A DNA stretch of 64,000 nt from an uncultured SAR86 cluster bacterium (GTDB taxonomy: Bacteria; Pseudomonadota; Gammaproteobacteria; Magnimaribacterales; AG-339-G14). Where the stretch lies: the NCBI GenBank assembly GCA_902635045.1, contig CACPMT010000002.1:175993-239992 (forward strand), written 5' to 3'. Below the pieces are notes generated by a model, which was given only the letters and a program-made list of their open reading frames with translations, searched no databases and had not been told where the DNA came from. How positions within the stretch are numbered: position 1 is the stretch's first letter; each line of letters starts with the position of its first letter. A program made the position numbers and the translations under genes. Shown here piece by piece: positions 52,610 to 55,430 of this stretch.

Positions 52610-53184
52610 TGTATAAACAAATCTCAATTTATATTGTCTTGCTATTAGCTCTGGTTGCACTAACCTTTTTCCTGACTACTTACTATATTGATTCTCAAAC
52701 TAATCAATCAAAAAATAATCAAAATTTAAATATATTTCAAGCTGAAGATATCAATCTCAAGCTTAACTTTTTTGGATCTGATTTTGACATAACATTAAAA
52801 AGCAAAATGATAAATGGACTATCTGACTCAAAAATTTTAACTATATATAATCCAATTATTAATTTAAAAAATTCCGAAATTGAAGTTGAAATTATTTCTG
52901 AAAATTCCGAATTAAATTATGGAACTGAAGAATTATTTATACCTAGCAAAATTAATTTTAAAGGAGTGTATCTAAATAAACCTTTTTCTGGCGAGGCTGA
53001 TCAAATGAATTTTTATTTTTTAGAAAATAGAATTTCCTTTAACAAAAGTTTAATGCTTATATTTGATGAAAAACTGTACAAAGGACAGAATATTGAAATA
53101 AACACTAAAGACAAGTCAATTATTGGAACTGATAAAATAAGTGTTAACAAAATAAATGATTCTAAAAACGCAAAAAATCTCTAA
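52609..53184 (+). CDS. lptC: LPS export protein LptC
   Basis: Single N-terminal TM followed by beta-rich region; ATG overlaps kdsD stop and 3' end overlaps lptB. Confidence 0.75.
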   Translation: MYKQISIYIVLLLALVALTFFLTTYYIDSQTNQSKNNQNLNIFQAEDINLKLNFFGSDFDITLKSKMINGLSDSKILTIYNPIINLKNSEIEVEIISENSELNYGTEELFIPSKINFKGVYLNKPFSGEADQMNFYFLENRISFNKSLMLIFDEKLYKGQNIEINTKDKSIIGTDKISVNKINDSKNAKNL

Positions 53185-53863
53185 ACGTTATGGCAAAAAA
53201 ATAATTTTGCAAGGTATTGATGCAGAGATAAACTTGCAAAGCATCAGTGGCATGCTTGGCCCAAATGGGGCCGGAAAAACTACACTTTTTTACGTTTTGG
53301 CAGGATTGCTTCAACCTTCTGAAGGAGAAATTCTTTTAAATGAAAAAAATATTACAAATAAAACAATTAGAGAAAGAGCAAACTTAGGCATAGTTTATCT
53401 GCCTCAAGAACCTTCAATTTTTAGAAATTTATCTGTTTCAGATAACATAAAGTCAGCATTTGAGGTGCAAAAATTAGACAAAAAAGAACTTAGTTTAAGA
53501 ACAGAAGAAATAATTGAAGACTTCGATATTGGATCTATCGCATTACAAAAAGGAAGTGAATTGTCTGGCGGGCAAAGAAGAAGAGTGGAAATCGCAAGAT
53601 CAATTGCTTTAAATCCGAAATTTATAATGCTTGATGAACCATTTGCAGGTATTGACCCAATAGCAATTCTTGAATTAAAAAAATTAATAAAAAAGCTATC
53701 TGATAAGGGTTTAGGCATTTTAATAAGCGATCATAATGTAAGAGCTACAATGGAAATCTGTAGTGAAATTTTTATTATTAGCGAAGGGTCGATAATATCT
53801 AGCGGAACTCCTGAAGAAGTTTCTAATAATAAAATGGTAAGAAAAACTTACCTAGGTGAATGA
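53156..53863 (+). CDS. lptB: LPS export ABC transporter ATPase LptB
   Basis: MLGPNGAGKTTLFYVLAG, YLPQEPSIFRNLSVSDNI, LSGGQRRRVEIARSIA, FIMLDEPFAGIDPI. Confidence 0.97.
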   Translation: MILKTQKISKRYGKKIILQGIDAEINLQSISGMLGPNGAGKTTLFYVLAGLLQPSEGEILLNEKNITNKTIRERANLGIVYLPQEPSIFRNLSVSDNIKSAFEVQKLDKKELSLRTEEIIEDFDIGSIALQKGSELSGGQRRRVEIARSIALNPKFIMLDEPFAGIDPIAILELKKLIKKLSDKGLGILISDHNVRATMEICSEIFIISEGSIISSGTPEEVSNNKMVRKTYLGE

Positions 53864-54096
53864 AATTGATGAAAAAAAGAAATCTTTATACTAATCAGCT
53901 GCAGATAAAAAAAAGCCTAAGAACTAAAATTTATGAATTTCTTAAAGAGGAGATAAAAAAAGAAGGAATTAAAAAAAAATCAGATGAAGAGCTTTCGAAT
54001 ATATTTAATTTAGAATTTGACACTAAGGTTTCTAGAAAAACAATAGCTAAGTACAGAGAAGAGTTAAAGATCCCCTCCTCAATTAACAGAAAATGA
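53860..54096 (+). CDS. 78-aa protein equal to the C-terminal RpoN-box (-24 recognition) domain of sigma-54; mini-RpoN or remnant
   Basis: KKSDEELSNIFNLEFDTKVSRKTIAKYREELKIPSSINRK versus known RpoN box ARRTVAKYRE..IPPS..RK; position directly after lptB; ATGA overlaps with lptB and mgtE. Confidence 0.82.
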   Translation: MKLMKKRNLYTNQLQIKKSLRTKIYEFLKEEIKKEGIKKKSDEELSNIFNLEFDTKVSRKTIAKYREELKIPSSINRK

Positions 54097-55430
54097 ATAT
54101 TTCTTCTGATGTAAACATAAGTTTTGTTCAAAAAGAATTATCAAAGGGAGAATTCAAAAATTTAAAAAGAATGTTTAATGGCATCCCGCCATATGATATT
54201 GCAATCTTGATTGAGTCTAGCTCCCCAAATAACAGAGCAATAATTTGGCAATTAATCGACGATAATATTGAGGGAGAGGTTTTAAGCAATCTTTCTGATG
54301 AAGTAAGAGAAATGGTTCTTTCTTTTATGGACCCTATCGAAGTAGCTGAAGTTATAAAAAATCTTGAGCCAGATGAAATAGCTGATATTCTTCAAGATCT
54401 TCCTGAAACTGTTACTGCTGAAGTCTTAGATGCTATGACAGATCAGAATAGGCAGCTAATCAAAAAAGTCTTGGATTATCCTGAAAACACTGCAGGCGGA
54501 CTAATGAATACTGATCTTATTTTGATAAGACCTAATCATACCTTAGAGGTAGTGTTGAGATACTTGAGAATAAAAAAAATTTTTCCCGATGCAACTGATA
54601 GTCTTTTCGTTGTAAGTAAAACTAATAAATTTAGAGGAATACTTTCTATCTCTAAAATATTAACAAATCCTCCAGAAAGATTAGTTAAAGACTTGATGGA
54701 AGACGAGACAAATTCCATCAATGTCAATACAGAATCTTCAGAAGTAATTAGAATCTTTGAGAAAAACGATTTAATTTCTGCGCCAGTTATAGACGATCAA
54801 AATAATTTATTAGGAAGAATAACCTTTGACGATGTAATAGATGAAATTAAATCAGAAGCAGATGAATCATTAAGGCAAATTTCAGGAATTGACAGCGATA
54901 CTTTTGAAAAAACTACTACAGCTATCAAAACTAGAGGATTTTGGCTTGGAACAAATCTGATAACTGCCTTAATTGCTGCTTCTGTTATTAATATTTTTAA
55001 AGAAACTTTAGAGCAAGTAATTTTTTTAGCAGTTCTAATGCCAATAATTGCAAGCATGGGTGGAGTGGCTGCTACTCAAACACTTACAATAACGGTTAGA
55101 GGTCTCGCCCTAGGCCAAATAGTAAGGGCAAATTATTTATATATCTTCAACAGAGAACTGCTGGTGGGAATATCTAATGGTTTTATTTGGGCAGTTATTC
55201 TAAGTTTAATAGCCTGTTCATGGTTTCAAGATTGGTTGCTCGCTTGGGTAATTTGCTTATCAATGATTATTAATTTGGTCGCGGGTGTTTTGTCCGGAAT
55301 GGGAATACCTATACTTTTAAAAAGCCTCAAAATGGATCCAGCAGTTGCAGGAAGTGTAATCGTCACTACAGTAACTGATGTGATTGGATTTTTCTCTTTC
55401 CTAGGGCTGGCTTCCTATTTTTATTCCTAG
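54093..55430 (+). CDS. mgtE: Magnesium transporter MgtE
   Basis: MgtE_N repeats (PDEIADILQDLP), tandem CBS, MPIIASMGGVAATQTLTITVRGLALGQI. Confidence 0.96.
   Translation: MNISSDVNISFVQKELSKGEFKNLKRMFNGIPPYDIAILIESSSPNNRAIIWQLIDDNIEGEVLSNLSDEVREMVLSFMDPIEVAEVIKNLEPDEIADILQDLPETVTAEVLDAMTDQNRQLIKKVLDYPENTAGGLMNTDLILIRPNHTLEVVLRYLRIKKIFPDATDSLFVVSKTNKFRGILSISKILTNPPERLVKDLMEDETNSINVNTESSEVIRIFEKNDLISAPVIDDQNNLLGRITFDDVIDEIKSEADESLRQISGIDSDTFEKTTTAIKTRGFWLGTNLITALIAASVINIFKETLEQVIFLAVLMPIIASMGGVAATQTLTITVRGLALGQIVRANYLYIFNRELLVGISNGFIWAVILSLIACSWFQDWLLAWVICLSMIINLVAGVLSGMGIPILLKSLKMDPAVAGSVIVTTVTDVIGFFSFLGLASYFYS

Follow-up and report, generated by a model that had tools for sequence, protein, structure and literature searches.

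Directly after lptB, in the window analyzed here (the whole stretch of 64,000 nucleotides, from a SAR86 bacterium whose assembly is 1.11 Mb in size and 88.5% complete), lies a small open reading frame that resembles only the end of sigma-54 (RpoN), and the question that this locus raises is whether the frame is a remnant of rpoN or a protein in its own right, and, in the latter case, how such a protein could act. The intact 78-aa ORF that a sequence-only reading had described at 53860-54096 is indeed present, and its view that full-length rpoN normally sits here agrees with the gene order of the sister SAR86 family f3 (L011, L003), in which lptB, full-length rpoN (~425 aa), and mgtE follow each other in that order.

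Location and Identity of the Open Reading Frame

The features of the locus are:

53156..53863, + strand: lptB, upstream neighbor (ABC_tran, 6.7e-32)
53860-54096, + strand: ORF with the alternative start ATG 53860 (78 aa)
53860..53868, + strand: possible upstream start ATGAAATTG that overlaps the stop of lptB; unconserved (absent in G001, G003, and G007)
53869..54096, + strand: free-standing RpoN-box domain protein of 75 aa, counted from the conserved start (Pfam Sigma54_DBD, PDB 2o8k)
53917..53961, + strand: first helix of the RpoN domain, residues 20-34 (AlphaFold2 model, alignment with helix 1 of RpoN domains)
54031..54060, + strand: RpoN box SRKTIAKYRE, residues 58-67 (alignments A2 and A3; model helix 59-68)
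54093..55430, + strand: mgtE, downstream neighbor (MgtE, 2.1e-28; ATGA overlap with the miniprotein gene)

Three of five congeners (G001, G003, and G007) lack the upstream start, ATG 53860, and their own start aligns with ATG 53869, about 9 nt upstream of which there is an SD-like AGGTGA; judging from these sequences, the real start of the miniprotein is probably ATG 53869 (75 aa) rather than the lptB-overlapping ATG 53860. The ATGA overlap with mgtE (54093) is found in all five genomes of genus g1. Where ATGA overlaps with both neighbors had been proposed, the one with mgtE thus stands (in the five g1 genomes) and the one with lptB does not, as ATG 53860 is unconserved, and the argument that double translational coupling favors retention is half right, since only its mgtE side is conserved.

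Pfam Sigma54_DBD (PF04552) matches the ORF at E = 6.1e-11 (42.8 bits against a cut-off of 22.8, profile positions 101-159 of 160), confirming by HMM the similarity that had been read from the letters alone; NCBIfam rpoN_sigma does so at 9e-11 (profile positions 377-434 of 434), and the closest solved chain is the Aquifex RpoN domain (PDB 2o8k, 5e-7). The similarity spans residues ~20-78, such that the proposed match to sigma-54 holds but extends beyond the C-terminal 40 residues to which it had been assigned, and a Sigma54_DBD profile search of the genome returned this ORF as its sole match. The AlphaFold2 model of the miniprotein, built from 39 sequences, consists of three helices with a pLDDT of ~90 over the core, and likewise ~90 in the first helix (residues 20-34). 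In Foldseek, every one of the first 18 matches to this model is a sigma-54 chain (TMq 0.48-0.64, probability about 1), with E-values of only 0.017 or weaker because the RpoN-box domain is tiny. By sequence and predicted fold, the ORF is the RpoN-box (-24) domain of sigma-54.

The box of the ORF, SRKTIAKYRE, which we take to be the recognition helix for the -24 element, has Lys at the position of the second Arg of ARRTVAKYRE, and the alignments give SRK in all 10 miniproteins versus RR in full-length SAR86 RpoN. The miniprotein thus lacks one of the two arginines of the sigma-54 box (R455 and R456 of E. coli), and an Ala mutant of either of these leads to loss of -24 binding (PMC7175178). At the other end, the N-terminal 15-20 residues align just downstream of the -12 HTH of RpoN, with the miniprotein beginning past both the extra-long helix of sigma-54 and the HTH that reads the -12 element. 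The ORF is therefore a plain C-terminal fragment, and the same alignment rules out a fusion of region I to the box.

Search for the Remainder of Sigma-54

The core-binding domain (PF04963) gave no match above cut-off in 40 family genomes or in the ORF, and the region I/activator-interacting profile (PF00309) gave only sub-cut-off scraps in the family, with all six f2/f3 controls positive. The order-specific profile A1 (f3 N-terminal regions), which was run without a control, gave no match at E up to 10 in the 40 family genomes. We note that region I is already diverged in sister family f2, where Pfam AID reaches only 2.7e-5 to 4.8e-5; profile A4 is centered on f2 and covers region I, the core-binding domain, and the HTH. 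It finds full-length rpoN in 10 of 10 control genomes (E 2.6e-71 to 9e-145), nine of which did not contribute to the profile. In 23 family genomes, among them G008 (a single 1.194 Mb contig), it gives only one match, a spurious one at 0.1.

As far as profiles can detect, the family has lost region I, the core-binding domain, and the -12 HTH, in agreement with the absence of core-binding and activator-interacting regions noted from the ORF (PF04963, PF00309, A1, and A4 are all negative in the family), and the full-length rpoN that might have existed elsewhere in the family was not detected by profile A4 in the 23 genomes. Since it has neither region I nor any part that binds RNA polymerase or recognizes the -12 element, the miniprotein alone cannot be a sigma factor.

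Conservation, Selection, and Descent

Within the window's own family, f1, the miniprotein is present at lptB-mgtE in genera g1 and g2, and is intact in 10 of the 10 species that carry it across these two sister genera. The window's miniprotein shares 41-92% identity with the nine other intact copies, and the box SRKTI[AS]KYR is invariant among the 10. Pairwise dN/dS, read where dS is unsaturated, is 0.02-0.11 in g1 and 0.13-0.28 in g2, the dN/dS of lptB (0.06-0.18) being close to these values, and both the HTH/box half and the N-terminal half of the miniprotein are constrained. Relatives in both genera thus do keep a small lptB-mgtE ORF with dN/dS < 1, as retention would predict. G004 and the 16 third-genus genomes examined have mreD immediately downstream of lptB and lack both the miniprotein and mgtE. 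The fourth genus has mgtE after lptB without the miniprotein in G013 and G019, and mreD after lptB in G028. The lptB locus is unassembled in G005, G006, G023, and G026 (g1/g2).

These data bear on two explanations that assign no role to the protein itself. A decaying, functionless rpoN remnant, such as the freshly eroded gene that the sequence-only reading had offered as one of its options, would suit streamlined genomes and an order in which rpoN has been lost several times; it is refuted by a dN/dS of 0.02-0.28 across divergent species, by the intact frame in all ten species of the two genera, and by the invariant box, and we regard it as exceedingly unlikely. That the frame persists solely to couple its translation to, or to overlap with, mgtE is also very unlikely: the ATGA overlap in g1 and the joint loss of the miniprotein and mgtE in two clades would fit, but selection acts on the amino acids, with both halves of the protein constrained, and G013 and G019 keep mgtE after lptB without the miniprotein.

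In the tree, the miniproteins fall on one side of a single branch (support 93/89), with an f2 RpoN joining the group, and a one-residue insertion before the box is common to the miniproteins and several f2 sequences. No relatives of the miniprotein were found in viral contigs or in phage or plasmid records, which, together with the syntenic locus, led us to reject a horizontal or phage origin. Among the best genome_contigs relatives, no other small RpoN-box protein was found where the box was located, the located boxes all lying inside long rpoN frames, a few of which run off contig ends. Weak Sigma54_DBD matches in the third genus (E ~0.005, in a 413-aa open frame) were rejected; in G009, the place is a metK/transketolase junction and the match is spurious. 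On these comparisons, there is good support for the miniprotein being a relic of sigma-54, a domain passed down vertically and maintained as a working protein under purifying selection, and it is very probably a retained, functional DNA-binding protein. The other option of the sequence-only reading, a retained DNA-binding miniprotein without sigma activity, is the one that the data uphold (ten species, dN/dS well below 1, no sigma-54 body). Our search of open-access papers found nothing relevant on SAR86 with sigma-54 or rpoN, and an RpoN-like lead in the Bradyrhizobium literature turned out to be about promoters rather than proteins.

Covariation with the GAFTGA Loop of NtrC

Activators of sigma-54 are thought to need region I as the target of their GAFTGA loop. 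In f1, the genomes of g1, g2, and g3 have one strong sigma-54-activator domain each, with the exceptions of G021, G026, and G039; the last has a second NtrC-like copy with ambiguous bases (G039:C39:9746-10243, L336), which is probably assembly or contamination redundancy (3% contamination). The G000 activator is NtrC, lying within a classical glnA-glnL-glnG cluster, and its Walker A (GESGTGKE), Walker B (LFLDEIGD), and GAFTGA loop are all intact; no sigma-54 body was found, and thus no sigma-54 holoenzyme for this NtrC to act on. Sigma-54-class activators are absent from the rpoN-less groups f4 and g11 and from the fourth genus, which has neither NtrC nor the miniprotein.

The L1 loop is GAFTGA in 10 of 10 miniprotein genomes, and also in G006 and G023, whose lptB locus is unassembled. 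Among the third-genus genomes, the 15 with NtrC all have GAFKGA; G004 and G005 have GAFAGA, and every rpoN-bearing relative read has GAFTGA or GSFTGA. Given the topology of the NtrC tree, (g3,(g2,((G004,G005), rest of g1))), the loop Thr was lost twice independently. Among 224 NtrC positions that are constant in the miniprotein genomes and identical in f2, G004/G005 differ at 3 and the third genus at 12, and the two clades have just one such position in common, Thr221 of GAFTGA (expected overlap 0.16). The new observation here is that the GAFTGA of NtrC is intact where the miniprotein is present, and that its Thr is replaced in both NtrC-bearing clades without the miniprotein.

According to published comparisons, most substitutions of this Thr abolish the activation of sigma-54, and activators in genomes without sigma-54 carry another residue here (PMC3162934); by this rule, the miniprotein genomes, with their intact GAFTGA, behave as if the sigma-54 contact still mattered. 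This covariation is the strongest clue to the function of the miniprotein, and the two concordant losses make a functional link with NtrC reasonably probable. We note, however, that both miniprotein-negative clades with NtrC have also lost mgtE, such that the loss of the miniprotein may be a by-product of a larger deletion, and that G005, one of the two GAFAGA genomes, is among those with an unassembled lptB locus.

Promoters and Candidate Target Sites

In f3 and f2, promoters of the -24/-12 type are found at glnA (G044, TGGCACATAAATTGC; G062, TGGCATAATTTTTGC), at amtB (G050, TGGCATATAAATTGC), and at glnK (G040, TGGCATAGAAATTGC). Upstream of glnA in f1, the NtrC half-sites TAGTGCA-N27-TGCACTA are kept, there is a -10-like TTTGnTAnnAT, and the -24/-12 element is missing, whether or not the genome carries the miniprotein; with this arrangement, NtrC looks like a sigma-70 regulator at glnA throughout f1. 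No difference stands out between the glnA/glnK promoters of miniprotein-positive and miniprotein-negative genomes. As for targets of the miniprotein itself, the 21 TGGCAY-N5-TTGC matches examined in miniprotein genomes include 0 intergenic ones, all being inside ORFs. Canonical -24/-12 promoters are thus unsupported as targets, and the suggestion of a repressor at canonical -24 sites lacks support as worded, given these 21 of 21 matches inside ORFs and the Lys in place of the second box Arg.

The SAR86 glnA promoter (L218:1-125 and homologues) goes from the NtrC/-24/-12 type in f3 to half-sites with a -10-like element in f1. Some f2/f3 genomes have two different amtB genes close together (L302 in G043, L299 in G044, and L300 in G050), one of which has its own -24/-12 promoter (G050). 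In f1, the glnK-amtB operon lies directly after a putative tRNA gene, with the regulatory region between them (L314-L327).

Possible Modes of Action

As the best explanation, we lean towards a sigma-less RpoN-box DNA-binding regulator that acts with NtrC. The miniprotein would bind -24-like or diverged sites near sigma-70 promoters, and once bound would block or mark these promoters in the manner of the engineered 60-residue RpoN* peptide; phosphorylated NtrC would engage or displace it via the GAFTGA loops, and, after loss of the miniprotein, the loop Thr would be left without a partner and be replaced. The displaceable roadblock, as a specific molecular step, is a conjecture that we hold to be doubtful. 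A two-part promoter switch, with the miniprotein as the DNA-bound substrate of the NtrC AAA+ ring via GAFTGA, is put forward tentatively, as is its corollary that such a switch would need no region I, core-binding domain, or sigma-54 RNA polymerase. Taken as a whole, the data suggest a working two-part regulator from a dismantled sigma-54 machine. On its own, the stretch of 60 C-terminal residues of Aquifex RpoN binds -24 DNA with a Kd of ~109 nM, and engineered RpoN* also represses genes when native RpoN is absent (PMC5626770). The main objection to the NtrC mechanism is that the known GAFTGA contacts are with region I and -12 DNA, not with the RpoN domain (PMC7175178), and the parts concerned are absent from the miniprotein. 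A hidden split partner would answer this objection, but the searches found no trace of one.

Such a partner is the essence of a split sigma-54, in which a diverged region I/core-binding gene elsewhere would be complemented in trans by -24 recognition from the miniprotein, and NtrC would still activate a two-chain sigma-54 holoenzyme. This would be the simplest reason for the intact GAFTGA, and the divergence of region I already seen in f2 (Pfam AID 2.7e-5 to 4.8e-5) is in its favor; against it, A1, A4, PF04963, and PF00309 return nothing credible in the family even though A4 finds every control, the f1 glnA promoter resembles a sigma-70 promoter and no longer has a -24/-12 element, and in miniprotein genomes none of the canonical -24/-12 matches examined falls outside an ORF. 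We consider both the split protein and its activation by NtrC improbable. Somewhat less so, albeit still unlikely, is an NtrC-independent DNA-binding repressor or architectural protein, for which the match with GAFTGA would be a coincidence of two lineages. The isolated RpoN domain does bind DNA and block transcription (PMC5626770), the box is invariant, and the link with NtrC rests on two independent losses only; yet the sole shared change in 224 NtrC positions is the Thr that contacts sigma-54, and NtrC is also missing in the miniprotein-less fourth genus.

Returning to the regulator acting with NtrC, what is kept in these genomes is the GAFTGA loop and the -24 domain, with everything in between lost, which points either to a hidden split sigma-54 or to an AAA+ protein working on a bare DNA-binding domain. 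Either, if true, would be a new way of transcription control, and the pairing of lineages that have the miniprotein with others that lack it makes the question testable.

Comparison with Known Systems

With sigma-54 itself (RpoN, PF04552/2o8k), the miniprotein shares the box domain, in sequence and model, as well as the locus and vertical descent; sigma-54 differs in having region I, the core-binding domain, the -12 HTH, and the second box Arg, which the miniprotein is without. The RpoN* roadblock, comprising the C-terminal 60 residues of Aquifex RpoN (PMC5626770, PMC6491466), is the same stand-alone domain at a similar size. However, RpoN* is man-made and works in a foreign host, whereas the SAR86 miniprotein, its natural counterpart, is selected and covaries with NtrC. 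The locus shows how a global regulator is dismantled as the genomes of abundant ocean bacteria are streamlined.

The degenerate rpoN of Neisseria (rpoN-like sequence; PMC6755734) is likewise a natural, partly lost sigma-54, but its truncation is the opposite one, with N-terminal parts kept and the HTH lost, with or without the RpoN box; unlike in the miniprotein genomes, no GAFTGA activator remains there (PMC6755734). In Rhodobacter capsulatus and Caulobacter, NtrC acts on sigma-70 promoters (PMC10274813), a loss of the sigma-54 role that fits the GAFKGA and GAFAGA clades; NtrC in these two organisms is without L1 by deletion (PMC10274813), while in the miniprotein genomes the motif is intact. 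The NtrC proteins of the third genus (L209-L215, L330-L338) and of G004/G005 (L216, L217) combine GAFKGA or GAFAGA with an intact Walker A, and, by sequence, are natural candidates for sigma-70 conversion without L1 deletion.
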